Origin: a virus
IMG/VR virus record: IMGVR_UViG_3300049216_000621
Span: 1-39,861 of that record
Strand: one strand, 5' to 3'
Length of the DNA stretch: 39,861 nucleotides
The notes below the pieces were generated by a model. It did not search any database and had not been told where the DNA came from. It saw nothing but the letters and a program-made list of their open reading frames with translations. The first letter of the stretch is position 1. Each line of letters begins with the position of its first letter. Shown piece by piece: positions 22,771 to 39,861 of the stretch. The translations under genes and the position numbers were made by a program.

Positions 22771-22913
22771 GGAAACCTCACTTGGTAGCGCCAGCCGTTG
22801 TTCGTCCAGAGGACCGTGACCAAAATCCCGCGCGCCTCCAGAAACCGGATCGCCTCGAAGTCCCTCCTGGGAACCTGGCTGATCAGGGAAATGCAATCGT
22901 GGGGCTTCTTCAC
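22767..22913 (-). CDS. 48-residue protein of unknown function
   Basis: Starts at GTG 22913, where the lipase TGA overlaps it (GTGA at 22910-22913), and ends at a TGA overlapping the next ATG. The peptide is MKKPHDCISLISQVPRR followed by DFEAIRFLEARGILVTVLWT and NNGWRYQVRFP, a compact alpha/beta mini-protein with no membrane segment. The longer reading frame upstream is an out-of-frame reading of the lipase gene. No family is recognised. Confidence 0.5.
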   Translation of the reverse strand: MKKPHDCISLISQVPRRDFEAIRFLEARGILVTVLWTNNGWRYQVRFP

Positions 22914-23641
22914 GCGGCCCTCGCTTTCAGCGCCTCGGCGACACCAGCCAGGGCGTGGTTGCCGTCGATGGATGTTTTCTGGTAGCACAGCGCGACCGGC
23001 TCGCCGATGTGCTCGAACTCCAGGCCGAGATGGATCGAATCAGCGGCAGGCCTCATCGTCGCCACCGGGATCGTCGGGACGATGTCTTCAGTGTTGAACA
23101 CGCGGAAGAGCGTGAGGCCGCTCGCGCGGAACGCCGCCGCCGCGACAGGATCGAGCGTGCGCGGCCCCTCGAACGTGATCGACTCGGGCCGGAAGGCGAG
23201 CGTGCGCCAGATGTCGATCTGCGCGAGGTGCGCCAGCGCCGCGCCGAGGGAATGCCCGGTCACGACGATCTGGTCCGGCGCGAGCAGCTTGATCGCCGCG
23301 AGGATGTCCGCCGCCATCTCATCGTAGAGATTCGAGAAGCCGAGCGTGGCGTTGCCGATGCCTCGGAAGGGGACCTGCTGGATCGTCGCGTCAGCCCGCC
23401 ATTCATAGAGGTCACGCGTCCCGCGAATCACCACGTAGGCCGTGAGCGTTCCGCCCGGCGTCTCCCGCATTGAGGCAACAAATCCGAACGGAACAGTCTT
23501 GCCCTGTTCCGTGGCGTGCAGGGTCCGCTCGATGATGAGGCCGTTCGGGAGAGGTGCCGTCGCACCGTCGAATTGCGCGTAGGCACAGTCGAGCAGCTCG
23601 ATCAGGAGCCGTGCTTCATCGATGGGAAAATCGTCGTTCAT
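22910..23641 (-). CDS. Class 3 lipase-like protein
   Basis: A 243-residue alpha/beta hydrolase of the fungal/class 3 lipase type. VTGHSLGAALAHLAQ holds the nucleophile Ser131. Asp186 (FNTEDIVPT) and His229 (DGNHALAGV) are well placed as the other catalytic residues. The 'TAYVVIRGTRDLYEWRADAT' segment before it is the family's 'V.fRGT....dW..D' oxyanion-loop region. No signal peptide is seen. It sits in the lysis block beside the holin-like gene, so it may attack host phospholipid or other envelope esters at lysis, in the manner that mycobacteriophage LysB esterases complete envelope disruption. The substrate is unknown. Confidence 0.75.
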   Translation of the reverse strand: MNDDFPIDEARLLIELLDCAYAQFDGATAPLPNGLIIERTLHATEQGKTVPFGFVASMRETPGGTLTAYVVIRGTRDLYEWRADATIQQVPFRGIGNATLGFSNLYDEMAADILAAIKLLAPDQIVVTGHSLGAALAHLAQIDIWRTLAFRPESITFEGPRTLDPVAAAAFRASGLTLFRVFNTEDIVPTIPVATMRPAADSIHLGLEFEHIGEPVALCYQKTSIDGNHALAGVAEALKARAA

Positions 23642-26397: not shown

Positions 26398-27140
26398 CTC
26401 CATCAACCCCAACCACCAAGGCCCTTATGTTCCTACCCCCCAAGGCAACACCACAGGAAATTGAAAACTACCTTCGAGGTAGCATTCAACTCGAACAAGT
26501 CAGCGAGCGCAGCCGCATCCTCGCCCAGGCCCTCCAAGGCATGTGCCTCACCGAGCTGCGCAAGCAGCACGGCCACCACAACGTTAATCGCCACTCCGCA
26601 CAGTGCGGAGTGGGGTGGGAAGAGTATATCGATAAGAGCTTTGGCATCTCGGACGATACCGCCCAGCGCCGCATCAAGTGCTGGATCGCGGTTCAGGCTC
26701 GCATCGCCAAGCTCTCCGAGGGCGAGAAAAAGTCTGCCTTCGGGCTCTTGAGCAAATCGCCGAGCCAACTCACCGAGCAGGAATTTGTCACGCTCAAGGC
26801 GGTCACGCACAAGGTCACCGACCGCGTCACGCAGGCCCAGCTCATCGAAGAGGCCGACTATTTGATCCTGCCGCCCGGTGAGCGCGCCAAGCGCCGCAGC
26901 GCCAAGCACGCAGGCGACAAGGGCGGCGCGCACGTCTCCGATCCGAAAGAGGAACAGGTCCAGCTCCACTTCCACTTCGACAACTTTCTGGAGATCGCCC
27001 GTAAGGCGATGTCGAAGGGCAAGGACAAGGTCACCGTCCTGGCCCACCTGCCGCGCGAGCGCTGGCTCGCCATCAAGGCTGACCTCGAGGCCCTCATCAA
27101 GGAAGGCGACGCCGTTCACGGCCTCGGCAAAAGCAAATGA
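26394..27140 (+). CDS. DUF3102-like early protein with a palindromic insert
   Basis: A 248-residue protein. After a polar start it has 'ERSRILAQALQGMCLTELRK' followed by QHGHHN, then 'GWEEYIDKSFGISDDTAQRR', which is the DUF3102 layout (helix, 'HG.w..wl...fgiS..TA.ry'). A ten-residue run (VNRHSAQCGV) sits between the two halves and is encoded by a perfect DNA palindrome (26591-26613). A Lys/Glu-rich region with LTEQEFVTLKAVTHKVTDRV and a C-terminal acidic/basic part follow. The family is often linked to phage and plasmid DNA binding; function is unknown. Confidence 0.6.
   Translation: MTPSTPTTKALMFLPPKATPQEIENYLRGSIQLEQVSERSRILAQALQGMCLTELRKQHGHHNVNRHSAQCGVGWEEYIDKSFGISDDTAQRRIKCWIAVQARIAKLSEGEKKSAFGLLSKSPSQLTEQEFVTLKAVTHKVTDRVTQAQLIEEADYLILPPGERAKRRSAKHAGDKGGAHVSDPKEEQVQLHFHFDNFLEIARKAMSKGKDKVTVLAHLPRERWLAIKADLEALIKEGDAVHGLGKSK
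26591..26613. repeat. Perfect 23-bp palindrome inside the DUF3102-like gene
   Basis: Arms CCACTCCGCAC and GTGCGGAGTGG are exact reverse complements around a single A. It lies in frame within the DUF3102-like coding region at the point where an insertion relative to the family pattern appears. It could form a strong hairpin in the early message or bind a dimeric protein. Confidence 0.75.
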
Positions 27141-27173
27141 GCCCAAGAGAAGTGTTCAGCGCCAAAATCGAAA

Positions 27174-27602
27174 TCAGCCCGTCCTGGAGTCGTCTTCCTC
27201 GCCGTGAATTAGGTTCTGTCGCATCTGCTCGCGCCAGACTGGAACGTGCTTTCCCCAACTGGCGACAAGAAGGTCTTCCAGCGCCCTATCTCCATCTCCA
27301 TCCGCAAATTCCTCCTCCTGCTCGGCCTTCTCTTTTGCCAGGACAACCGCGTACACCACGCGGTGAGCAAAGTGCCATCGCTCCAGCACCGTCAATTTGG
27401 GCATCCGCTGATCTCGCGCCAAGGAACGGGCGGTGGCATCGAGCACTGGGCGCAGTTGCTCTTCGGTTTGTACAATGGATTGGAGCGTTACTTCGTTACT
27501 CAGGCCGATCCATTCAGCAGGCCACGCGTCGCCCAGTCTTTCAAATATCTCCAGCAGCACCGATTGAACTGCGGCCCAATTCAGTTCCGCCTCCGGGTCC
27601 AT
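27174..27602 (-). CDS. Lone minus-strand gene upstream of the transposase
   Basis: The 142-residue product has a natural amino acid mix with Trp, Glu and Leu (LNWAAVQSVLLEIFERLGDA, AWPAEWIGLSNEVTLQSIVQ, LERWHFAHRVVYAVVLAKEK, LLVASWGKHVPVWREQMRQN), unlike the Pro/Arg/Ser-rich plus-strand frame in the same place. It fills the gap between the DUF3102-like gene and the transposase without overlapping either, in the opposite orientation. It is probably a mostly helical soluble protein of unknown family. Convergence with the early block makes it a candidate lysogenic or regulatory gene transcribed separately; its promoter would have to lie just upstream of the transposase gene. Confidence 0.55.
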   Translation of the reverse strand: MDPEAELNWAAVQSVLLEIFERLGDAWPAEWIGLSNEVTLQSIVQTEEQLRPVLDATARSLARDQRMPKLTVLERWHFAHRVVYAVVLAKEKAEQEEEFADGDGDRALEDLLVASWGKHVPVWREQMRQNLIHGEEDDSRTG

Positions 27603-27642
27603 CCCGGAAGGTTAATCGATCGACCTCGGAGGACAACGTCAA

Positions 27643-29793
27643 ATGAGCGACATCGCCGCCATCGAGCCGTCCAGCCTCGCCTACAGCGCGGAAATCCAGT
27701 ACGCGCAGCTCCCCGCCCGCATCAAGCGCGAGGTCGATCTATGGCTCCCCTCCGTCCTGCGCGTGATCGAGGGCAAGCCCAAGAGCCTCGCCATCGCCCG
27801 CGAGGCGGAATTTCTGTCGGTGCAATTCCAGCGGCCCGTCTCGGCGGCGACCGTGCGAGCGAAGGTTTCCCTCTTCGAGAAGATGGGCCGCAGCTACCGC
27901 GCCTTCATCAACTGGTCGAAGATGCCCCACCAGGAGAACAATCTCCCGACCGAATTTCTCGAATGGTATCTCGTCACGGTCTGCGGTGGCAACCAGCGCA
28001 AGAACAGGCCCGCTCATTCAAAGCTCATCCGGCACTGGCAGGGCCGCAAGGAAATCCCCGGCTATCGCGGCAAGGACTACACCGTCGACGGGAAGGAAAA
28101 GCCGGAACTCGACTACCCGATGGCGTACCCCGGCACCGACATGCCGTGGGGATGGACCTACTCCAATCTTCAGAAGGCGCTGCGCAAAAATCCCTACTGC
28201 CGGTTTCTCCTCACGATGCGCCGCCAAGGATCGGTCGCCGCCTGCGCCCTCCTGCCAAACGTCTGCCTCTCCACACGGGTCGACATCAAGCCGGGGCAAT
28301 TCTACATGCCGGACGACCGCTGGATCGATTGCGACATCATCGTCGCGGGCCAGACCGAACCGGCCCGGCCCATTGAGCTCGGTTTCGGCGACGTCGCTTC
28401 GACCAAGAAAGTCTGCTGGGGCATCAAGCCCCAGCTCCGCACGCGCCGTAAGGGACCACGCGAGCGCACAAAGCTCGACGATATGCGCCTCCTCCTCGCG
28501 CAACTCCTCTGCCTCATCGGTTATCACAAGGACGGCGTCACCTTCATCATCGAGCACGGAACGGCCACCATCCCCGAGGAATTAATCCTCCTCCTCTGCC
28601 AGCTCTCGGGCGGCGAAGTGGTCAACGGCAAGATCGTCCGCGAGGGATTCATCAAGGTGCACCCCAGCGGCATGCAGGGCGGTTTGCGGATGATGGGCGG
28701 TTACCTGGGCAAGCGCCTCGGCAACTTCAAGGCCAAGGCCAGTTACGAATCGAGCCACAACCTTTACCACAACGAGTCCGCCGATCTGCCCGGCCAGAAG
28801 GGAAAAGACCCCGCGCACGCGCCCGAGGACGATGGCGCGGTCGCCAACGAATCGAAGCGGCTCCTCACCATGATGCTCGCGCTGCGGCCTGATCTCCGCG
28901 AGCACATCAAATTTCACCACCTCCATTTCAAGGCGTTCATGAGCGCCTACATCCAGTTGAAAAACCGGATCGAGGACCGGACCAATCATCGCATCCAGAA
29001 TTGGGAGGAGTGCGGCTACGTCATCGCCGAGTACCGCGTCACCTACGATCCGAACGGCTGGCGTCCGCGCTCCGAGCTTGCCGCGATGCCGCCCGTCCAG
29101 CGCCAGGCCATCGAGGCGCTGATCGAAAAAGTCCCGTATCTCAAGCGGACGCGCCGCATGTCACCCAATGAGGTCTGGGAGCGTGGGTTGGCCGAGCTGA
29201 CTGTGCTGCCCATTCACTGCATGCGCCTCATCCTTGGGGAGGGCCTGATGGAAGTCCACGCGGTGCAGAAGAACGGCGAGTTTGTTTTCAAGCGCACGGA
29301 CGTCAGCGAGGACCCGCTCCACTTCGTCGCCATCGCCGACAATGGCGAGGGCGTCGAAACCGTCTTGCAACCGGGACGCGAGTACCGGACCTGGTTGAAC
29401 GATTTCAACCCCGACATGCTCTTCGTCGAGGAGATGGGCGGCGCGAATCACGGTCGCTACCTCGGCATCTGCAAGCCGGTGCCCAAGGCTGGCCACGGTG
29501 ACGACAAGACGCGCCACGCCGCCGTGCGCGCGGCGGAAGCGCGCTTCGCCAAGGCATCCGCCCCCTACGTCGCCCAGGGGCAAAAGCTCCTCCAGCAGCG
29601 TGAGGCCCAGCTCGACCACAACACCAGCGTCATCAGCGGAGGGCCGCTCACTGATGCCGAACGCAGAGCCGAAGAGACACGCCTCGCCGAGCCGCTCGAT
29701 CCCTCCGACGTCGCCGCGCTGCGCGACACACCCGCTTCTTCGCCAACCCCCGAACCCCCCACGTCCGACCTGTCCGCCAAGGACTTCATCTAA
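27643..29793 (+). CDS. MuA-like DDE transposase
   Basis: A 716-residue transposase with a GGAGG site 10 bases before the ATG. The N-terminal 220 residues are helical, as in the end-binding domains. The catalytic core starts at WIDCDIIVAGQ (Asp229 or Asp231), has FIIEHGTATIPEE (Glu304, where the usual residue is Asp) and later PAHAPEDDGAV (Glu395). The beta-barrel-like region (RSELAAMPPVQRQAIEALIE, MSPNEVWERG) and a disordered charged tail (DLSAKDFI) follow. Neighbouring MuB-like ATPase and phage genes make the identity firm. It integrates and replicates phage DNA by transposition. Exact catalytic residues need alignment. Confidence 0.88.
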   Translation: MSDIAAIEPSSLAYSAEIQYAQLPARIKREVDLWLPSVLRVIEGKPKSLAIAREAEFLSVQFQRPVSAATVRAKVSLFEKMGRSYRAFINWSKMPHQENNLPTEFLEWYLVTVCGGNQRKNRPAHSKLIRHWQGRKEIPGYRGKDYTVDGKEKPELDYPMAYPGTDMPWGWTYSNLQKALRKNPYCRFLLTMRRQGSVAACALLPNVCLSTRVDIKPGQFYMPDDRWIDCDIIVAGQTEPARPIELGFGDVASTKKVCWGIKPQLRTRRKGPRERTKLDDMRLLLAQLLCLIGYHKDGVTFIIEHGTATIPEELILLLCQLSGGEVVNGKIVREGFIKVHPSGMQGGLRMMGGYLGKRLGNFKAKASYESSHNLYHNESADLPGQKGKDPAHAPEDDGAVANESKRLLTMMLALRPDLREHIKFHHLHFKAFMSAYIQLKNRIEDRTNHRIQNWEECGYVIAEYRVTYDPNGWRPRSELAAMPPVQRQAIEALIEKVPYLKRTRRMSPNEVWERGLAELTVLPIHCMRLILGEGLMEVHAVQKNGEFVFKRTDVSEDPLHFVAIADNGEGVETVLQPGREYRTWLNDFNPDMLFVEEMGGANHGRYLGICKPVPKAGHGDDKTRHAAVRAAEARFAKASAPYVAQGQKLLQQREAQLDHNTSVISGGPLTDAERRAEETRLAEPLDPSDVAALRDTPASSPTPEPPTSDLSAKDFI

Positions 29794-29799
29794 ACCCCC

Positions 29800-30867
29800 A
29801 TGCAAGAAAACGATCCCATTCCCGAAAGGCCGAACGGCACGCGCCGTTGGTCCATCCCCACCACCACCGTCAACGAGGCCACGGCCAGCATGCCGGAGGA
29901 ACATCGCGCCGCGCTGCGCTGGCTCCAGGGCTACGGCATCGACAGCAACAAGACCATCGATGAAGTCGCGGCCCTCCTCAAAAAGCGGGATGGCTCGAAG
30001 TATTCCCGCGATTCGGTTTATCAGGCGCTGACCGGTCGGCGCGAGGCGGGCACCGGACTCAATTCCATTGTCGGTTCCATCCTCGAACTGCGTCGCAGCG
30101 TCGAGGCACGCAACTCGGTCGGCTTCCCCTACGTCACATGGAAGGTATCGGAGCGCATCTGGGAACTGTGCGAGATGGCCTTCACCTATCAGGACATCGT
30201 TTTCATCTATGGCCGAAGCCACCGAGGCAAGACCGTTCCCCTGAAGCAGTACGCCAAGGAAAAACCATTCGGTCGGGTCATCTACATCGAGATGCCGATT
30301 GGCGGCTACATCTCGGCGTTCAAGGCCGATCTCGCCGAGGCACTCAAGATTTCCGGCAAGTATTCCACCAACGAGCTGAGCAAGCGCATTCGCGAGGCCA
30401 TCGATCCGGGAATGATCCTGATCGTCGACCAGTTTCATCGGGCCGTCCCCCGCAATCGCCGCCAGTCCCTCGATACGTTCGATTTCATCATGCAGCTCCA
30501 CGACCTTTGTGAGTGCGGCGTTGTGCTCTGCGGCACGCCGCAGGCGCGCGAGGAGATCGAGAACGAGAAGGGCAACAACGCCGAGTTCTTCCGGCAGCTC
30601 ATCAACCGCAGCGTGGGCTCGTTCGTCATCGAGGATGCCGTCAGCGCGAACGATCTCGTTCCCTTTGCCAAGGCCATCGACTTGCCTCCGGCCACAGGCG
30701 AAGCGCTCGACTTGCAGACGGCCACCATCAGCAGCCACAGCCTCGGCAAGTGGATCAAACTGCTTCGCACGGCCATGCGGCTCGCGGCCAACAAGAATCA
30801 GCCTCTCGCTTGGGAACACGTCATCAAGGCCAACCGCTGGCTCACCGCGCAGGGAGAAAGCAAATGA
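29800..30867 (+). CDS. MuB-like AAA ATPase, transposition target selection
   Basis: A 355-residue protein with an N-terminal helix-turn-helix-like region (TIDEVAALLKKRDGSKYSRD, SVYQALTGRR), then an AAA core: Walker A GRSHRGKT at 138-145 and Walker B MILIVDQFH (Asp210, though Gln instead of Glu follows). A likely sensor 1 lies at VVLCGTPQAREE, with a C-terminal helical domain (SLGKWIKLLRTAMRLAANKN). MuB and its relatives bind DNA with ATP and deliver targets to the transposase. The immediate position after the transposase gene is diagnostic. The stop overlaps the next ATG. Confidence 0.85.
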   Translation: MQENDPIPERPNGTRRWSIPTTTVNEATASMPEEHRAALRWLQGYGIDSNKTIDEVAALLKKRDGSKYSRDSVYQALTGRREAGTGLNSIVGSILELRRSVEARNSVGFPYVTWKVSERIWELCEMAFTYQDIVFIYGRSHRGKTVPLKQYAKEKPFGRVIYIEMPIGGYISAFKADLAEALKISGKYSTNELSKRIREAIDPGMILIVDQFHRAVPRNRRQSLDTFDFIMQLHDLCECGVVLCGTPQAREEIENEKGNNAEFFRQLINRSVGSFVIEDAVSANDLVPFAKAIDLPPATGEALDLQTATISSHSLGKWIKLLRTAMRLAANKNQPLAWEHVIKANRWLTAQGESK

Positions 30868-32161: not shown

Positions 32162-32361
32162 CCATCGAAGTCACCCCATCCGAAGCCAAGTTCATCCGCG
32201 ATTCACTCTGCATGCGCGCCCGCCTGATCGAGAGCGTTCTGCCTGATTCCGCCAGCGTCGAGGAGCGCACGCAGCTCGAAGGCCATCTCCTGCTCGGCGC
32301 GGACCTCACCACGCGCCTCAACCTCATCCTGCGCATCGCCACCACGGAGATTGCCTCGTGA
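32158..32361 (+). CDS. 67-residue small helical protein, unknown
   Basis: From ATG 32158 the peptide runs MTIEVTPSEAKFIRDSLCMR, ARLIESVLPDSASVEERTQL and EGHLLLGADLTTRLNLILRI. It is a short helical protein with no recognised family, whose end overlaps the helicase GTG (32358-32361). The chain of small genes between ATPase and helicase is typical of early phage DNA metabolism regions. Confidence 0.6.
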   Translation: MTIEVTPSEAKFIRDSLCMRARLIESVLPDSASVEERTQLEGHLLLGADLTTRLNLILRIATTEIAS

Positions 32362-33794
32362 TCATGCCCGCAACCAAGACCAAGCGCCGCGCCGCAGAGG
32401 CGCTTTCTCCGCAGGTGCTTTACAGCGCCGAAGCGGAGAAAGCCGTCCTCGGTTGCATGATGGCGCAGCCCGCCGAGGTCATCGACGAAGCCGCCATGTC
32501 GCTCGTCAAGGAGGACTTCTTCGTCCCCGCTCATCAGGAAATTTACGCCGCCCTGCGCGAGATGCACAACGCGCAGACGGCCATCGATGTCATGACCATG
32601 CATCAGCACCTCACCGACCGGAAGCTCGATCAATCGGTCGGATCGCCCGGCATTCTCGGCGAGCTGCTCGTCGGCTTCGCCACGCACCTCAACGTCGGCT
32701 CCTACATCCGCATCGTGAAGGACAAGAGCCTGCTTCGCGCCCTGCAACTCGTCTGCTCGACCATCGTCACCGACATCGCCGACATGCCCGACTCGGTCCC
32801 CTCCGTCCTCGACCGCGCCGAGACCGCCATCTTCCTGGTCACCAATCAGGGCCTCACGCAAACGACCGTTTCCGCGCGCGAGGAGATCGACCGCGCCCTC
32901 GGCGTCATCGAGGCGTTCCGGGGCCGCAAGGGCCACTTGCAGGGAATCCCCACCGGCTTCCACAAGCTCGACGAACTCACCGCAGGCTGGAAGCCCGGCG
33001 AGATGATCGTGCTCGCCGCCCGGCCCGGCCAGGGCAAGACCGCGCTCGCGCTCACCTTCGCGCGTCACGCCCTCGATGGCCGCTACGACGAAGCCTCCGA
33101 CGCCTGGATCAAGCCCGGCTATCCGGTTGGCATGTTCTCGCTCGAAATGACCAACGAGCAACTGATGCTGCGCCTCCTCGCCTCGTTTTCCGGGACGAGC
33201 CTGCAACGCATCCGCTCCGGCGAACTCGATGACCAGGGCATGGAACTGCTGCGCGCCCGAGCCGGGCAGATGAAGGAATGGCCGCTGTACCTCGACGATT
33301 CGTCGTTTCTATCCATCAACCAGCTCCGGGGCAAAGCGCGTCGCATGAAGGACCGCCACCAGATCGAGCTGCTCATCATCGACTATCTCCAGCTCCTCCG
33401 CTCCGAATCCGAGCAGGCCAAGGACAACCGGCAAAACGAGGTCGCCGAAATTTCGCGCGGCATCAAGGCCCTCGCGAAAGAACTCTCCATCCCCATCATC
33501 ATCCTCGCCCAGCTCAACCGGCGCAGCGAGGAGGCCAAGGCCGAGCCCGCGCTGCACAACCTGCGCGAGTCGGGTGCCATCGAGCAGGACGCCGACGTCG
33601 TCATGCTCTTGCACCGGCCCGATCAAGAGAAGGACCAGGACGGCAACGAGCGCCAGAGCAGCCCCATCTGGCCCTACGTCCTGAATATCGCCAAGCAGCG
33701 CAACGGCCCCACCGACCGGCTCGATATTGTTTTCAACGCCCCATACACGCGATTCGACGATCCGATCCGCCACGAGACCCGGAGGAACGAATGA
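32358..33794 (+). CDS. DnaB-type replicative helicase
   Basis: A 478-residue DnaB-family helicase. GTG 32358 overlaps the upstream TGA; ATG 32364 is an alternative start. The N-terminal domain (SAEAEKAVLGCMMAQPAEVI) is followed by the RecA-type motor: Walker A ARPGQGKTALAL near 219-229, MFSLEMTNEQLMLRLLAS, Walker B LLIIDYLQLL near 338, LAQLNRRSEE near 385, and 'DADVVMLLHRPD' near the C-terminus. It is expected to unwind DNA 5' to 3' ahead of the replication fork. Mu itself has no helicase gene and uses the host's, so this phage brings its own. The stop overlaps the next ATG. Confidence 0.9.
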   Translation: MIMPATKTKRRAAEALSPQVLYSAEAEKAVLGCMMAQPAEVIDEAAMSLVKEDFFVPAHQEIYAALREMHNAQTAIDVMTMHQHLTDRKLDQSVGSPGILGELLVGFATHLNVGSYIRIVKDKSLLRALQLVCSTIVTDIADMPDSVPSVLDRAETAIFLVTNQGLTQTTVSAREEIDRALGVIEAFRGRKGHLQGIPTGFHKLDELTAGWKPGEMIVLAARPGQGKTALALTFARHALDGRYDEASDAWIKPGYPVGMFSLEMTNEQLMLRLLASFSGTSLQRIRSGELDDQGMELLRARAGQMKEWPLYLDDSSFLSINQLRGKARRMKDRHQIELLIIDYLQLLRSESEQAKDNRQNEVAEISRGIKALAKELSIPIIILAQLNRRSEEAKAEPALHNLRESGAIEQDADVVMLLHRPDQEKDQDGNERQSSPIWPYVLNIAKQRNGPTDRLDIVFNAPYTRFDDPIRHETRRNE

Positions 33795-34354
33795 GCCCCG
33801 CCCAGGACAAAGGCTACTGGCGTCGCTGGTCCGCCGTCGTGCGCGCTCACGGCCTCAATCGTCTCCCAAAGACCGAACAGGACGAAGAGCGCCACCAGAT
33901 CACCCTGGAAGCGACCAAGGGCCGGACCTCCTCGCACAAAGACGTGACCGACAACAAGGAAATCACCCGGCTCTTCCGCATCCTCGAATACCGCGCGCAG
34001 CCCGACAACCTCAACGCCGCCATTCCCGTCGCCAATCCCGAGAACGAAGCCGAGGCCGACGAGCAGCGTCGTTGCGTCGTTGCCCTTTCAAAGAAGGGCC
34101 TCCCCACCGATGAAATCGCCCGCATCGCCGCGCCGCTTTGCCGCCGTCACCGTGTCGGCGACTGGACTCTCCTGCCATCGAAAGTCCTCCACGAGATGAT
34201 GCACTGGAAACAATTCCAGCCCGCAGAAATCGCGCGTCGTCGCCACCTCAGCGCTCTCCCGCTCCAACAGACCGGCAACGACGCCTTCACTTATTACCTT
34301 CGTCCGCCACCCCCAACCCCCAAGCCAGTGCATGCACGCATCCACACCTACTAA
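33791..34354 (+). CDS. Unknown early protein after the helicase
   Basis: The 187-residue product from ATG 33791 (ATGA with the helicase stop) begins MSPAQDKGYWRRWSAVVRAH and has 'DVTDNKEITRLFRILEYRAQ' followed by PDNLNAAIPVANPENEAEAD. The later 'LPSKVLHEMMHWKQFQPAEI' segment is helical. The layout recalls GemA/gp16-like early proteins of Mu-type phages, small helical DNA-associated regulators. Position after the helicase could also suit a helicase-loading partner. I cannot decide between these. Confidence 0.55.
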   Translation: MSPAQDKGYWRRWSAVVRAHGLNRLPKTEQDEERHQITLEATKGRTSSHKDVTDNKEITRLFRILEYRAQPDNLNAAIPVANPENEAEADEQRRCVVALSKKGLPTDEIARIAAPLCRRHRVGDWTLLPSKVLHEMMHWKQFQPAEIARRRHLSALPLQQTGNDAFTYYLRPPPPTPKPVHARIHTY

Positions 34355-34355
34355 A

Positions 34356-35537
34356 ATGATAACCAAACTCACCCCCTCTCAGGAAAAGGACATGGTCAAT
34401 GTCCGCGATAATTGGCTGAAAATCGGTCGCAGTTGCGAGCCGCTTAATCGACCCGCCGCTACCGAATCCATCCGCAAAATGTATGAGGCCATCGGAGAAA
34501 AGCGACCGACCGTTCTTTTCTTTTCTTCGCCCTTAATGTGCATCCTCGCTTATGGCGTCCTGCGAAGCAGGACGCCGTTAAAATTTGAGTCGCTCGGGGA
34601 CCAGCTCAGGGACCAGCTCAGGGACCAGCTCGGGGACCAGCTCTGGGACCAGCTCAGGGACCAGCTCAGGGGCCAGCTCTGGGACCAGCTCGGGGGCCAG
34701 CTCTGGGACCAGCTCAGGGACCAGCTCTGGGACCAGCTCTGGGACCAGCTCAGGGACCAGCTCTGGGACCAGCTCTGGGACCAGCTCGGGGGCCAGCTCA
34801 GGGGCCAGCTCTGGGACCAGCTCGGGGGCCAGCTCGGGGGCCAGCTCTGGGACCAGCTCGGGGGCCAGCTCAGGGACCAGCTCGGGGGCCAGCTCAGGGA
34901 CCAGCTCAGAAATTATTTTTCAGGCGCACATGAGTGCGCCTGGGAGGTCTTCTATCATTTCGGAGAACGAATCGGAGCAAAATATCCTCCTAAATTGTCT
35001 CGAAAGCTGGGCCTTTGGATCGAGCAATCGAAGCAATGCTATTGGTGGTTTCCGTACAAGGGCATCGCTCTGGCCTCTGAGCGGCCCTCACAACAGCACC
35101 TCGACGAACGCGGTCGGCTCCATTCATTCAGCGAGAAGGCCATCAGATTTTCCGATGACTGGGGATTCTATTTTTCTCATGGCGTAGCCATGGAGGAATG
35201 GATGATCACGACTCATCCTTCCAAGCTTGACGCCAAGAAGGTACTCAGCGTTCCGAATGTGGACCAGCGCCGAGAGCTGATTCGCCGCATCGGCATCGAA
35301 CAGCTCGTCGATCACCTTCCCCACAAGGTGCTCGATAAACAGGACGAATATGAGTTGCTGGCCATCGATCTCTCTCCAGAACTCAAGCGCTGCCGCTACC
35401 TCAAGATGAAAAATCCCAGCATTGGCCTGTGGCATTTGGAAGGCGTCAGCAACGACTGCCAGACCGTTCAGCACGCTCTTAATTGGCGCAGATACAAGGA
35501 GATCAACCGCGCCTGGAAACCCTGTCAGCTCACCTAA
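34356..35537 (+). CDS. DUF6745 protein with a 26-unit tetrapeptide repeat
   Basis: I start at ATG 34356, one base after the previous stop; ATG 34332 is in frame but overlaps it. The 393-residue product matches DUF6745. The N-terminus has LTPSQEKDMVNVRDNWLKIG and TESIRKMYEAIGEKRPTVLF. A middle run of 26 units of (D/G)QL(R/W/G) follows (34599-34910). The C-terminus has 'YWWFPYKGIALASERPSQQH', 'LDERGRLHS', GVAMEEWMITTHPS and 'GLWHLEGVSNDCQTVQHALN', the recurring family features. DUF6745 has no known function. The repeat is expected to form a helical or amphipathic coil. The gene is in the plus chain but not overlapped by the next gene. Confidence 0.75.
   Translation: MITKLTPSQEKDMVNVRDNWLKIGRSCEPLNRPAATESIRKMYEAIGEKRPTVLFFSSPLMCILAYGVLRSRTPLKFESLGDQLRDQLRDQLGDQLWDQLRDQLRGQLWDQLGGQLWDQLRDQLWDQLWDQLRDQLWDQLWDQLGGQLRGQLWDQLGGQLGGQLWDQLGGQLRDQLGGQLRDQLRNYFSGAHECAWEVFYHFGERIGAKYPPKLSRKLGLWIEQSKQCYWWFPYKGIALASERPSQQHLDERGRLHSFSEKAIRFSDDWGFYFSHGVAMEEWMITTHPSKLDAKKVLSVPNVDQRRELIRRIGIEQLVDHLPHKVLDKQDEYELLAIDLSPELKRCRYLKMKNPSIGLWHLEGVSNDCQTVQHALNWRRYKEINRAWKPCQLT
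34554..34576. repeat. Perfect hairpin upstream of the repeat array
   Basis: Arms GGCGTCCTGC and GCAGGACGCC are exact complements around GAA. It lies in frame in the DUF6745 gene, 22 bases before the first 12-bp unit. In RNA this would be a very stable 10-bp stem with a GAA loop. Confidence 0.75.
34599..34910 (+). repeat. Tandem array of 26 units of 12 bp
   Basis: Unit: G-(A/G)-C CAG CTC (A/T/G)-GG; all units are the same except at base 2 (A or G, giving Asp or Gly) and base 10 (A, T or G, giving Arg, Trp or Gly), apart from the final A in the last unit. It encodes (D/G)QL(R/W/G) 26 times without a break. The same DNA is open in other frames (SG(T/A)S in the +1 frame). Variation in only two of twelve positions suggests copying by slippage or recombination under coding constraint, not simple decay. 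Confidence 0.95.
34921..34942. repeat. Perfect hairpin downstream of the repeat array
   Basis: Arms CAGGCGCAC and GTGCGCCTG are exact complements around ATGA. It begins 10 bases after the last unit, still in the coding frame. With the hairpin at 34554-34576 it brackets the array. Confidence 0.75.
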
Positions 35538-35563
35538 AACCAACCCCTAAAGGAAACATCGGT

Positions 35564-35902
35564 ATGAAACAAATCCACATCCAACAAGGCGACGTTGCCC
35601 TCGAGCGCATCGCCAAGCTCCCGCCCGGCCTTAAGCCGGTGAAGCCCGATCCGCGCGGCATCGTCCTCGCAGAGGGCGAACACACTGGCCACCACCACCG
35701 CATCGAACGAAAGTTCGTCCCCCTGGTGGAATTACTCGAAGGCGAGGATGGTCGCCGCTTCCTGGTCAACAATAGCAAGAAGGCCGTGGAGGTCATCCAC
35801 GAGGAGCATAAGCCCATCACCGTCGATCCCGGCATCTACGAGGTCGGCAACATTCACGAGGTGGACCACCTCGCCGGCCTGGAGCGCAAGGTCATCGACT
35901 AA
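35564..35902 (+). CDS. Small protein often found beside DUF6745 genes
   Basis: From ATG 35564, preceded by AAAGGAAA, the 112-residue protein runs MKQIHIQQGDVALERIAKLP, 'RGIVLAEGEHTGHHHRIERK' and 'NSKKAVEVIHEEHKPITVDP'. Two features recur: the 'QGDV' strand start and the 'GE.TGH.H.I' motif. I recall similar short proteins adjacent to DUF6745 genes in other genomes. The clustered His (GHHHRIE, HEEHK) could bind metal. Role unknown; a functional link with the repeat protein is suggested by adjacency. Confidence 0.65.
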   Translation: MKQIHIQQGDVALERIAKLPPGLKPVKPDPRGIVLAEGEHTGHHHRIERKFVPLVELLEGEDGRRFLVNNSKKAVEVIHEEHKPITVDPGIYEVGNIHEVDHLAGLERKVID

Positions 35903-35937: not shown

Positions 35938-36393
35938 ATGAAAATTTTAGCCTTCCTTCAAAACCAGTGGGTCAACGAACCTGAGCGCGTCCGCGCCTCA
36001 ATTGAAAAATACGGCGAGAAATATCGCCGTCGCTTTATCGCCTTTGCCCTTTTTTCCGGTTGTTCCACCGGTCGCAGGCTGCGCTCTTCCTTCGGCGATC
36101 TGTGTGATCAGATCATCTGGGAAGAGGCTTCTCCCAAAATTGGTGGCCACTCATCCTCCTTTTTCGTCCCTGATAAAAATCACATTTCCCAGCGGATCGA
36201 CGAGGAATCTCCCGATGTGATTCTGGCTTTCGGCGCTGCTGCCTGCGCCGCCGTTCAGAAGACCCTTTCCAAACGCCTCGACGGACCCTGCATCGAATTT
36301 ATCCAGCTCCCGCATCCCGTCGCCAGACACACCGGCCTGATGGAGTTGTTGAAGAAAACTGGCGCTTATTTGCGCGCACGGAATCAGTTATGA
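35938..36393 (+). CDS. Uracil-DNA glycosylase superfamily-like protein
   Basis: A 151-residue protein with a Rossmann-like layout: MKILAFLQNQWV at the start, a central 'GCSTGRRLRSSFGDLCDQII' helix, 'SPDVILAFGAAACAAVQKTL' (strand-helix) and 'EFIQLPHPVARHTGLMELLK'. The 'kILafg' and 'HP.aR' elements fit small UDG-superfamily proteins found in phages. They excise or bind abnormal bases, but the catalytic motif A (GQDPYH-like) is not evident, so it may bind without cutting. It begins 35 bases after the previous gene and overlaps the next ATG. Confidence 0.5.
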   Translation: MKILAFLQNQWVNEPERVRASIEKYGEKYRRRFIAFALFSGCSTGRRLRSSFGDLCDQIIWEEASPKIGGHSSSFFVPDKNHISQRIDEESPDVILAFGAAACAAVQKTLSKRLDGPCIEFIQLPHPVARHTGLMELLKKTGAYLRARNQL

Positions 36394-36731
36394 CCACCGC
36401 GCCCGAGATCGAACGCTACCTACTCGCCCAGGACCGCTGGGTGAGTAGCGCCGATCTCTGCGCGCGCTTCGACATCGACGAGCGCGAACTCCGCTGCATC
36501 GGCCATGAGCCCGGCCTCATCAGCGCCTACGCCATCAGCCACACCCGCAAGGGCTATCGCCACGTCCGCAACGCCACCACCATCGAGTGGCTCGCCTTCA
36601 AGTTCGCCATCCTGCGCCACGCCATCTCCGAAATCCGCCGCGTTCGCCGCCTCGCCAAAGTCCGCCACAACGTCCTCAACCCCACCATCCCCCTCTCCGA
36701 AGCCGACAACGGCCAAGGCATCCTACTGTGA
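36390..36731 (+). CDS. Winged-helix-like small protein
   Basis: A 113-residue protein whose ATG overlaps the previous stop. PEIERYLLAQDRWVSSADLC followed by ARFDIDERELRCIGHEPGLI reads as a helix-turn-helix/winged-helix, and 'AISHTRKGYRHVRNATTIEW' as the wing. A basic C-terminal helix (ILRHAISEIRRVRRLAKVRH) follows. It may bind DNA and regulate or help the modification genes beside it. Stop overlaps the methyltransferase GTG. Confidence 0.6.
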   Translation: MTTAPEIERYLLAQDRWVSSADLCARFDIDERELRCIGHEPGLISAYAISHTRKGYRHVRNATTIEWLAFKFAILRHAISEIRRVRRLAKVRHNVLNPTIPLSEADNGQGILL

Positions 36732-37597
36732 ACAATGAGCTCAAAACGATTGGTTCTATCTGCACCGGAATCGCTGGCTGGGACATCGCCTTCGAGGAGG
36801 CTGGCTGGATCACGAGCTGGCAAATCGAACTCGATGACGTCAACCGGGCTGTCCTTGCCGATAGATTTCCTCGGGCCCGCCAATTCAAAAACGCCAGAGA
36901 TTGGCGATCACATCGATTGCCCAAGGTTCGTGCTATCGCGTTCAGCAGCCCGTGTCAGAACCTCTCGATCATGGCGAACTTTGTCAAAGATCAGTCGCAA
37001 CGTGGCCTTACGGGAGGCAAGTCATGCCTTTTCTTCGAGTGTATGGAAATCGTCGGAGCTCTGGGCCCGGAGTTCGTCGTGTTCGAGAACGTACCAAACT
37101 TGCTCCATTCCAATGGTGGCCGAGACCTTCAAGCGGTTGTCGAGTCATTCGCCGAACGCGGTTACATGGGATCAGCGCGAGTGCTCAATTCATCGGCTTT
37201 CGGAGTGCCCCAAAACCGTCGTCGGCTTCTCCTGGTCGCACGTCTTGGACAACAACCCCCAGCTGAGTTCATGGCTGACGCTGGGCCAATGGAAGCGTTA
37301 CCTGCTTCGCTTGGGTCGAGCCGGATCGCAGAACACGAGGGCGCTTGGGCTGGGTATACTCTTACGGCTCCAAACAAGCTCAACTCCTGTAATTCCCGGA
37401 TCAATATTGGCAGTGAACTTCTCGTTGCTGAGGAAGGAGGATGGCATCAGATGGCTGAGCGGTCCCGAGCGGCTGAGATACATGGGTTTCCCAGGGGATT
37501 GGATGTCACCAACACTGAAGAGGCTTATGCCGCAGGAAACGCCATGCCCCCCCCTATGGCAAGATGGCTGGCTGAAATTATAAACCGGGCCCTATGA
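36728..37597 (+). CDS. C5 cytosine DNA methyltransferase
   Basis: Starts at GTG 36728 (289 residues). The motifs appear in order: I (IGSICTGIAGWDIAFEEAG), IV (AFSSPCQNLSI, catalytic Cys75), VI (EFVVFENVPNL, Glu119-Asn-Val), VIII (AFGVPQNRRRLLLVAR) and X (AYAAGNAMPPPMARWLAEII). It transfers a methyl from S-adenosylmethionine to C5 of cytosine in double-stranded DNA. The variable region between VIII and X is short, so the target is likely simple. No restriction enzyme is beside it, which suits an orphan phage methylase protecting DNA or marking for packaging or regulation. Confidence 0.88.
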   Translation: MNNELKTIGSICTGIAGWDIAFEEAGWITSWQIELDDVNRAVLADRFPRARQFKNARDWRSHRLPKVRAIAFSSPCQNLSIMANFVKDQSQRGLTGGKSCLFFECMEIVGALGPEFVVFENVPNLLHSNGGRDLQAVVESFAERGYMGSARVLNSSAFGVPQNRRRLLLVARLGQQPPAEFMADAGPMEALPASLGSSRIAEHEGAWAGYTLTAPNKLNSCNSRINIGSELLVAEEGGWHQMAERSRAAEIHGFPRGLDVTNTEEAYAAGNAMPPPMARWLAEIINRAL

Positions 37598-38409
37598 AAG
37601 CAGTCCCTCAGTCCTTCGACTTCGGTCACAATCCGCTCCGGCCCGATTTCGTCGTCAAGACCTCGTACGGAAACGACTCGATTGCCTTGATCCAGTGGCT
37701 TCACGAATACGATCTTAAACACTCACTTGGCCGGGTCGTCTGCCTCTTCAATGATACCGGTTGGGCTGCTGACTGGTGGATGAAGCGCGTCGATAATGCC
37801 GAGGAGAATCTCGTCAAAAAATACGGTTTCATCCCATCCCGGACAAGCTGCATTGGGATGCGAAAACTGATAGTCCAAAAGAATGCGTGGCCGAACATGC
37901 TTGCCCGCTTCTGTACCGAGGAGTTGAAGATCGTTCCTACCCATAATTGGCTCATCGTTCATGATGTTGAGGGGCTGGCGGAGATGGTCTGCGGGGTTCG
38001 ACGCGAGGAAAGCCAGGATCGCGCTGCGTGGCCCGAGTATGTTCCAGCATCGGATAAAAATGAGGGGCGTGCTGAGTGGTCGCCAATGGTCGAGGTTAAG
38101 AAAGTAGAACGTGACGCACTGGTCCTACGAGCGGGCTTTCAAGTACTGCCCCATCGTTCGAGGGAATGCCGGTGTGTGCTCGCCAACTCAACAGACCTGA
38201 AGACATGGACCGAAGGGGATATTAAGGACATCGAAGAGCAGGAAGCGATCCTTGGGCAGAGGCAGAGGCAGACAAATAATTTTATGTTTCGACCGAATGA
38301 CAAGAGAGGAAGACCGCATGGCATTCGCGCCGTCGTCGCGTGGGCCCATGGCGTTAAAACCAAGGAACCAGCCCGGAGCGGTTGCGATGGCGGCTATTGC
38401 GTGTCGTGA
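37594..38409 (+). CDS. PAPS reductase-like PP-loop ATPase
   Basis: A 271-residue adenine nucleotide alpha hydrolase. The PP-loop is SYGNDS at 24-29 (S-x-G-x-D-S), a Rossmann core follows (GRVVCLFNDTGWAADWWMKR), and 'MLARFCTEELKIVPTHNWLI' with Cys107 is the CTxxLKxxP-like element of PAPS reductases. A Cys cluster near the end (RECRCVLAN; CDGGYCVS) could bind metal. Such proteins in phages and restriction systems make or use sulfur or nucleotide activation in DNA or tRNA modification. Overlap with methyltransferase stop and the next GTG places it in the same unit. Confidence 0.7.
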   Translation: MKAVPQSFDFGHNPLRPDFVVKTSYGNDSIALIQWLHEYDLKHSLGRVVCLFNDTGWAADWWMKRVDNAEENLVKKYGFIPSRTSCIGMRKLIVQKNAWPNMLARFCTEELKIVPTHNWLIVHDVEGLAEMVCGVRREESQDRAAWPEYVPASDKNEGRAEWSPMVEVKKVERDALVLRAGFQVLPHRSRECRCVLANSTDLKTWTEGDIKDIEEQEAILGQRQRQTNNFMFRPNDKRGRPHGIRAVVAWAHGVKTKEPARSGCDGGYCVS

Positions 38410-38960
38410 AAACTCCAGCCTCCATCGTCACTGTCCTGTTACAGCGGGCCCGCCGTGATCTATACGCCTCGCTGCCAGACCGCGCCTGGTTCACCCAGCA
38501 AGCCCGCGTTAAAGCCGCCCTCACACTGCCAGCCAAGTTCCTCGAGGACCGCAAGGTCGAAATCCCCGCTGAGCGCTACCAAGCCATCGTGGAGAGCATC
38601 CTCGACAGAATCAAGGGCCATGGCCGCAAGGACCTCGGCGCGTACCCCTGCGCCTATCTCCATTCCTGCGTCGAAAGCCACCTCCGCCATCACGGCGACG
38701 AGTATTACGAACAGGGCAAAGGCATCCGCAACCGCGTCCGCCTCTTCATGTCAGCCGTAGACAAAGGCCGCGTCGGCGCTGACTCCACCATTCCCGTCCT
38801 CGCCGCCGTCCACACCGCCACCGTCGCCGCCCTCCAAGTCGGTCGCCGCAAAGCCAAAAGCACCGCCCCTGCACCCGCCATGCAACCCGATTTATTCGGC
38901 GATGCACGCCGGGCTCAAAATGCTAAAAGTGATGCCAACTTGCCCAAACGAGCCAGTTAA
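38406..38960 (+). CDS. Unknown protein with C-terminal clamp-binding-type motif
   Basis: Starts at GTG 38406 (GTGA overlap). The 184-residue protein is helical, with MKTPASIVTVLLQRARRDLY, AERYQAIVESILDRIKGHGR, a basic stretch with YPCAYLHSCVESHLRHHGDE, and a linker. Near the C-terminus it has MQPDLFGD (Gln160-Phe164). Q-x-(D/S)-L-F is the beta sliding clamp-binding pattern, and the motif lies in a disordered tail, its usual place. The last gene of the plus chain, it may act at replication forks or tie the modification module to the clamp. The body family is unrecognised. Confidence 0.6.
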   Translation: MKTPASIVTVLLQRARRDLYASLPDRAWFTQQARVKAALTLPAKFLEDRKVEIPAERYQAIVESILDRIKGHGRKDLGAYPCAYLHSCVESHLRHHGDEYYEQGKGIRNRVRLFMSAVDKGRVGADSTIPVLAAVHTATVAALQVGRRKAKSTAPAPAMQPDLFGDARRAQNAKSDANLPKRAS

Positions 38961-39062
38961 ATGCTAAAACCTCGATTCTCCTCCCGAGGCAGCGGCAAAT
39001 CCCGTAAGTGTTTGATTTACGGGCTATTCCCGGCTAATCCGGCTTAATCCGGGATTGCTAAA
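38918..39062. repeat. Short direct repeats near the right boundary, possible transposase sites
   Basis: AAATGCTAAAA occurs at 38918-38928 and 38959-38969, and a degenerate copy (ATTGCTAAAT) at 39053-39062. As I recall, the Mu end-binding consensus has AARYRCGAAAR in its right half; these copies match 10 of 11 positions. Positions just past the last phage gene make them candidates for the right-end sites of the element, or they may be chance. Confidence 0.3.
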
Positions 39063-39129
39063 TTCACTTTCCCCGAAGCCATTACCTTCTGGAGGCTGAT
39101 CCTTCGACAAGCTCAGGATGACGGATTGC
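38961..39129. other. Non-coding region at the probable right end of the phage
   Basis: No long open frame is seen here; an ATG directly at 38961 opens only a 28-codon frame. A hairpin at 39001-39023 (arms CCCGTAA and TTACGGG, 9-base loop) may end rightward transcription although no T-run follows. A second imperfect dyad (CCCGG/CCGGG) lies at 39029-39053. At about 39101-39118 CCTTCGACAAGCTCAGGA is a sequence I know as a common intergenic repeat in many bacterial genomes, suggesting host DNA from there on. Confidence 0.5.
39001..39023. terminator. Hairpin past the last plus-strand gene
   Basis: CCCGTAA and TTACGGG pair exactly around GTGTTTGAT, 40 bases after the last early gene. The stem is modest and no T-run follows, so intrinsic termination is possible but weakly supported. 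Confidence 0.35.
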
Positions 39130-39861
39130 TTATACAATGCGCATCCACCGCTTGAATGCCCTTATGTCAGCTGCATGGAGATCAAACCATTCCCCATTTT
39201 TTCTTTTTGAAGCAAATCTCTTATGCCAATAGGCCTCAACACCGTCCGGATCATCTGTCTTAATCACATGGACGGTTGTTGGTTTTTCCGCCAATTGAAT
39301 CGCAAGATCGTACTCCCTGCGCCCGACAGAATTTGTTTTTCCGGTTTTATAAAATCGGCCTGATTTCATCAGGTAGACAAATCCGATTTTCTCATTGGAT
39401 TCCGGTTTTTCTTCGGATTGCTGACTCAATTTGGCTTTGGGTAATGCCGCCTCGCACATTTGAAGAATATCTTCATAGTCACTTTTCTGCCGGCAGTATT
39501 CTGCAACTCTTGAAACAAAATGGCTTTTTGATCCGAAGTGGGCTTCGAAGGTTTTTGAACTTGGAAACGTTTTATCCTTATAAGCTTTCAACTTTAGTTC
39601 CCTTGAAACTGGAAAATGTTCAATCTCACGAGCTAAACTTATCAGCTTTTCAATGAGAATATCTTCCTCATAACCCATCTGCATTTGGTTGGGGATGAAG
39701 CCAGCTTCACGAATTGCCTCACTCCAACGAGGCCAGTACTTTCCACTCCAATCGTGCTCTTTGATGTTGGTCGCGTTGTAGAAGGTCATTCTGCCCGGAG
39801 GTTTGCCTCCATTTGCCGAAGCTATGCGCTCAATCTCATCAAGAATGTGCTGCTTGGTCAT
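39130..39861 (-). CDS. GIY-YIG endonuclease with homing-associated repeat (T5orf172-like)
   Basis: The 243-residue product starts at the last base of the window (ATG at 39859-39861), so an upstream extension cannot be excluded. Residues 25-57 (MTFYNATNIKEHDWSGKYWP followed by RWSEAIREAGFIPN) match the homing endonuclease-associated 'fy..tgi...dW.gkYWarW.eAl.eAGf' repeat. From 160 GFVYLMKSGRFYKTGKT carries the GIY-YIG core, with Arg181/182 and Glu209 (GVEAYWHKRF) as catalytic candidates; WFDLHA ends the domain as in T5orf172. The gene is visibly less GC-rich and points leftward against the early chain, so it is probably host or homing cargo, not phage core. Confidence 0.75.
   Translation of the reverse strand: MTKQHILDEIERIASANGGKPPGRMTFYNATNIKEHDWSGKYWPRWSEAIREAGFIPNQMQMGYEEDILIEKLISLAREIEHFPVSRELKLKAYKDKTFPSSKTFEAHFGSKSHFVSRVAEYCRQKSDYEDILQMCEAALPKAKLSQQSEEKPESNEKIGFVYLMKSGRFYKTGKTNSVGRREYDLAIQLAEKPTTVHVIKTDDPDGVEAYWHKRFASKRKNGEWFDLHAADIRAFKRWMRIV

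Follow-up and report, generated by a model that had tools for sequence, protein, structure and literature searches.

The locus described here raises the question of whether five genes that overlap in a single chain also work together. It lies at positions 35938 to 38960 of IMG/VR virus record IMGVR_UViG_3300049216_000621, a stretch of 39,861 bp that comprises the whole record and is called the window below. An initial annotation had proposed that the five genes, here termed A to E, form one DNA modification module. Comparison with related phages led us to a different reading, to which we assign a probability of about 0.8: the locus would be a slot for accessory genes where the early operon of a B3-like transposable phage ends, with C and D as cargo between the resident genes B and E.

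All five genes are encoded on the plus strand at the end of the early region. Gene A (35938..36393, 151 amino acids) is followed by gene B (36390..36731, 113 amino acids), gene C (36728..37597, 289 amino acids, start codon GTG), gene D (37594..38409, 271 amino acids) and gene E (38406..38960, 184 amino acids, start codon GTG), which is the last gene of the early region. The single chain had been described correctly, with a 4-bp overlap (ATGA or GTGA) at each junction. Identical overlaps were found in relatives carrying entirely different cargo or none at all, and the coupling is therefore a habit of this region and no proof of joint function.

The closest kin are three further IMG/VR records, of which L161 and L162 were reached by scanning with E and L182 via a sequence motif of A. 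In L182, whose DnaB helicase is 75% identical to that of the window, the genes stand in the order A-B-E (53%, 44% and 62% identity, respectively), and the stop codon of B overlaps the start codon of E with nothing between them. Its whole record of 39,999 bp contains neither a relative of D nor a gene of family PF00145, and both are also missing from the records of L161 and L162. L182 represents the empty version of the window site. The same position is filled differently in L162 (B 69%, E 55%), where an open reading frame of 116 amino acids, a DUF1643 gene (E 8e-38) and a MethyltransfD12 gene (E 3e-26), a D12-class N6-adenine methyltransferase, lie between B and E, and in L161 (B 51%, E 59%), which carries a DUF2786/DUF7168 gene there. 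Two more distant records, L152 and L153, show a B-like gene directly before E with no gene between. At this site, L182, L152 and L153 hence lack the C-D insert (36728..38408, plus strand), and L161 and L162 have other genes in its stead. The full set of five was found in no relative, which largely contradicts the expectation that homologues would keep the five together.

Base composition separates the same genes. The G+C content at third codon positions (GC3) and the fit to the codon usage of the phage amount to 0.60 and 0.53 for A, 0.57 and 0.48 for C, and 0.62 and 0.54 for D, compared with 0.88 and 0.85 for B, 0.71 and 0.66 for E, and 0.66-0.86 and 0.59-0.87 for most core genes; the reading frames at 35563-35902 and 27137-27646, the latter of which may be no gene, were left out of this comparison. 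By these values, B and E look native, whereas A, C and D have the appearance of recent acquisitions. Taken with the gene orders of the kin, B and E are best regarded as resident early genes of this phage group, and C-D as a later insertion of foreign composition between them.

A slot of the same kind, in another phage group, has been described for Burkholderia prophages (phiE125, phi644-2, PI-E264-3) as an insertion hotspot for morons with a phosphoadenosine phosphosulfate (PAPS) reductase or a DNA methylase, the PAPS reductase gene being flanked by two conserved genes of the phage (PMC2920897). Sister Burkholderia phages carry other morons at this hotspot, and DNA methylases are among the morons shown (PMC2920897). 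Both sites thus share a PAPS-reductase-type gene between conserved genes and sister phages with different cargo, but PAPS reductase and methylase are separate morons in Burkholderia (PMC2920897), whereas a 5-methylcytosine (m5C) methyltransferase and a PP-loop gene occur together here. A row of overlapping genes that looks like an operon can be deceptive, and it is the comparison with kin that splits resident genes from cargo and reveals the unoccupied site. The same comparison outlines a cargo slot where the early operon of B3-like transposable phages ends, and this slot has taken up two unrelated kinds of DNA methyltransferase (m5C and N6-adenine) in two phages.

The assignment of the window phage to the B3-like, Mu-type transposable phages is based on MuA- and MuB-type genes at 27643-30867 (matches to phrog_310 and phrog_296), on a terminase that shares 50% identity with its counterpart in Pseudomonas phage B3 over 76% of the protein, and on a shared layout. 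The terminase-portal block is encoded on the strand opposite to the early genes, among them the DnaB helicase gene at 32358-33794, and the map of B3 shows the same layout reversed, with early genes extending to one end. The window phage resembles B3-like phages (Beetrevirus, Pseudomonas phage B3; saltoviruses related to Mu) in the terminase, in the MuA/MuB-type genes and in having a divergent structural block from which the early genes are directed away. It belongs to a different lineage, its MuA reaching no more than 24-30% identity with the nearest records, and carries the C-D cargo in addition to early genes of its own, B and E, for which blastp gave no match in B3.

Gene C, the first gene of the insert, had been annotated as a C5 methyltransferase, and this was borne out. 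The protein matches PF00145 with 117.9 bits (E 8e-34), a motif scan found motifs I, IV (PCQ), VI (ENV), VIII (QNRRR), IX and X, and its nearest solved relatives are the HhaI and HaeIII methylases. Catalytic motif IV occupies residues 75-77 (36950..36958, computed from the gene start), and the stretch between motifs VIII and IX is compact. C is thus predicted to be an intact m5C DNA methyltransferase. Library searches gave no nuclease match in A, B, D or E, and a PADLOC scan of 15 window proteins returned only a weak REase_II match, to the GIY-YIG gene (39130-39861) that lies past the likely end of the phage. Because no accompanying nuclease gene was found, C is apparently an orphan methyltransferase; a restriction-modification unit was considered and dropped, no partner having been found. 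Orphan phage m5C methyltransferases (phrog_116 and phrog_363) likewise show all catalytic motifs and no adjoining nuclease. Unlike these, C is compact, with a best identity of 39% to one phage protein, in the catalytic half.

The reading that we favour is as follows. B and E are conserved neighbours that are translationally coupled in the empty state, with the stop codon of B on the start codon of E; A lies upstream of B, and the two-gene insert C-D between B and E. As the 4-bp overlaps are kept by the insert, all genes could share one transcript and be translated in a coupled manner. C would most likely methylate cytosine at a short site in phage (and host) DNA, and phage DNA methylated in this way, once replicated and packaged, should resist host restriction nucleases cutting that site. 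D would most likely be a separate adenylating PP-loop enzyme of the same cassette, probably Fe-S-dependent and of the sulfur-transfer type. Of the original proposal of DNA modification, the part that stands is therefore an intact DNA methyltransferase carried by the phage, and the five-gene module does not, as B and E occur without C-D in the kin.

Gene D had been described as a PAPS reductase-like PP-loop protein, of which the PP-loop part holds. Its match to PAPS_reduct (PF01507) barely passes, with 23.9 bits against a cut-off of 22.5, and its profile found no match among PDB chains by sequence. An AlphaFold model built with 24 sequences (predicted local distance difference test, pLDDT, 84) displays a PP-loop fold and comes closest to CysH, adenosine phosphosulfate (APS) reductases and other PP-loop enzymes (Foldseek E 5e-9; VIA Z 10-13.5). 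Among 83 aligned sequences, G26, N27, D28 and S29 of the loop SYGNDS (residues 24-29, 37663..37680) are invariant, as are the cysteines C107, C192 and C194, while C264 and C269 are kept in 94% and 99%. The five near-invariant cysteines are suggestive of a bound [4Fe-4S] cluster, as in PP-loop sulfur-transfer enzymes, and D may transfer sulfur. With the SxGxDS loop of ATP pyrophosphatases and a modelled HUP-type fold, D belongs to the PP-loop ATP pyrophosphatase superfamily. The SYGNDS five-cysteine PP-loop proteins and the A proteins treated below are two phage protein families delineated here.

D also weakly matches the profiles of DndC and SspD (E 5e-5, 20-21 bits), the NCBIfam DndC score being 20.1 against a cut-off of 290. 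No Dnd or Ssp partner was found among the 15 window proteins scanned with PADLOC, and a phosphorothioation system of the Dnd/Ssp type was dropped in view of this lack of partners. D has the PP-loop fold and the FC..LK and ECx(P)C motifs in common with DndC/SspD and with APS/PAPS reductases, but differs from them in lacking ECGLH, in its two conserved C-terminal cysteines and in having no Dnd/Ssp partners that we could find.

Do C and D, then, belong together? Among the alternatives to a slot with independent cargo, the one that survives best, although we consider it unlikely, is that C and D, without A, B and E, form a two-gene DNA modification unit in which D would attach sulfur or another group to a cytosine marked or flipped by C. 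The two genes are directly coupled and were inserted together, D has a fold and a cysteine pattern of the sulfur-transfer or sulfonucleotide kind, and its weak DndC and SspD matches point the same way. The genomic surroundings of 80 viral and 17 bacterial genome loci with relatives of D give a divided picture. Within two positions of D (n=145 genes), PF00145 is the commonest family with four genes, followed by integrases, polymerases, N6/N4 methyltransferases and helicases. An m5C methyltransferase occurs anywhere in the examined flanks in 10 of 41 dereplicated D groups, but 31 of the 41 have none, and the records of the three closest D relatives (56-62% identity, 38-59 kb) are without any PF00145 gene. 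Moreover, the methyltransferases next to D bear little likeness to C (25-33% identity in the aligned parts) and stand on either side of D, and Dnd or Ssp partners are lacking among the scanned genes. By its neighbourhoods, D thus belongs to phage regions of DNA handling, where it leans mildly towards methyltransferases and has no fixed partnership with one.

Several observations nevertheless weigh against treating the locus as a slot with chance cargo. An m5C methyltransferase adjoins D in 6.6% of groups compared with 1.2% for other genes (41 dereplicated groups, p about 0.02), in a control that left the window out and used other genes of the same loci as anchors; an earlier permutation that included the window gave p = 0.0016 (8 loci) and is superseded by this window-free control. 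Given this excess, more than chance may have brought C and D together as cargo, and the co-occurrence expected by the initial annotation fails for the closest relatives of D and persists in this weaker form. In addition, the close kin number only three phages, and the genes that precede E in L152 and L153 resemble B only weakly (20-24% identity).

Two neighbourhoods with other PP-loop genes are also of note. In Bacteroides phage BS-TP4 (L003:3242-5876), three consecutive genes encode an m5C-type methyltransferase, a hypothetical protein and a PP-loop protein with SGGKDS, whose subfamily differs from that of D. In another phage record (L178:900-2584, minus strand), a PP-loop gene of the PAPS-reductase/DndC-like type, different from D and with the loop SGGKDS, has an A-family gene immediately downstream; this record has a separate PF00145 protein as well and represents a second, independent A/PP-loop neighbourhood.

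Slightly less probable still, in our view, is that D is a metabolic PAPS/APS reductase, that is, an auxiliary metabolic gene of sulfur assimilation unrelated to DNA. Such an annotation is given in phage records, and it would agree with the PF01507 match and with CysH and APS reductases as the best structural neighbours. A host APS reductase used for comparison (L170), however, shows SFSGAEDV, ECCGIRK, GCEPCT and KECGLH, and D shares with it only the middle cysteine region. Both the C-terminal KECGLH and the reductase-type loop are absent from D and its family, in which SYGNDS with an invariant Asp-Ser takes the place of SFSGAEDV; lacking KECGLH and having an SxGxDS loop, D falls outside the reductase family on these features. 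The named neighbours of D, moreover, are mostly DNA-handling genes.

Gene A counts among the accessory genes and has foreign codon usage. It has no match in Pfam, PHROG, NCBIfam or PDB, tblastn against phages and plasmids gave none either, and single-protein scans of IMG/VR with A, D or MuB returned no relatives. Its family, reached only by a hand-chosen motif pattern in IMG/VR, comprises relatives at nine loci (39-53% identity) with the invariant pattern AFxQNxW...FxGCxTGRRL...IWEE...FG...HPxAR, and is itself without match in PHROG or PDB. In genomes sampled from the phyla of L089 (Sandaracinus) and L094 (Proteobacteria), all hits for A looked spurious, and L106 proved to be an antisense artefact. 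The proposed likeness to uracil-DNA glycosylases (UDGs) is unproven. An hhalign comparison of the A profile with a UDG alignment from ten genomes reached 52% over 35 columns at FG..HPxAR, with controls from other families at 1.3% or less, but this weak alignment is confined to the C-terminal half of A, and UDG motif 1 (GxxPG-type) has no match in the protein. A single-sequence structure model has a pLDDT of 37. We take the UDG-like reading as a suggestive lead and not as a finding. In L162, the place of A upstream of B is taken by a DUF5131 (Gp37/Gp68-type) gene and an unnamed gene of 281 amino acids (L162:2938-4700), again with 4-bp overlaps.

For the resident genes, the earlier descriptions fared better. 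The B protein is winged-helix-like, a plausible reading, with no family match in library searches. E had been called clamp-binding, and the peptide behind this is conserved: a C-terminal Q-x-x-[LF]-[FL] clamp-type motif, QPDLF in the window (residues 160-164, 38883..38897), is present in eight of the nine family members including the window and missing in L165. The seven of eight relatives that have it read QADLF, QPDLF, QPDFL (L182), QLGLF, QLDLL, QPDLL and QLSLL. These sequences support E as a predicted sliding-clamp-binding protein; tblastn of E against phages gave no match.

That C and D act in series on phage DNA to install a new sulfur-bearing or further altered cytosine, while A might guard against wrongly modified bases or process them, we hold to be very improbable. 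Least credible of all is a single module of all five genes, since the unbroken chain of overlaps, a possible recruitment of enzymes to the clamp by E and the faintly UDG-like half of A stand against B, E and A-B-E occurring without C-D (L182, L161, L162), other cargo in this slot with identical overlaps, and the deviating composition of B and E.

Further features of the window lie outside the slot. Upstream, at 34332-35537, a DUF6745 protein carries a long run of [DG]QL[RWG] repeats (DQLWDQLRDQL...), and at its position L161, L162 and L153 encode different repeat proteins of low complexity that are rich in Ala (EVAAAEVAAA, RDAAWDAA); a gene for a repeat protein thus seems to be a constant element there. 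A class 3 lipase (22910-23641, minus strand; PF01764, E 2e-20), unusual for a Mu-type phage, is encoded in the gene block beside the terminase. A repeat-rich stretch at about 39020-39075 (GGCTA..TCCGGCTTAATCCGGGATTGCTAAATTC) is common to the window after E and to the tail of L162 after its E. Beyond it, the G+C content of the window falls from 0.60 to about 0.41-0.48; the phage probably ends near 39.1 kb, and the GIY-YIG/HNH-repeat gene at 39130-39861 (minus strand) is likely flanking host DNA.

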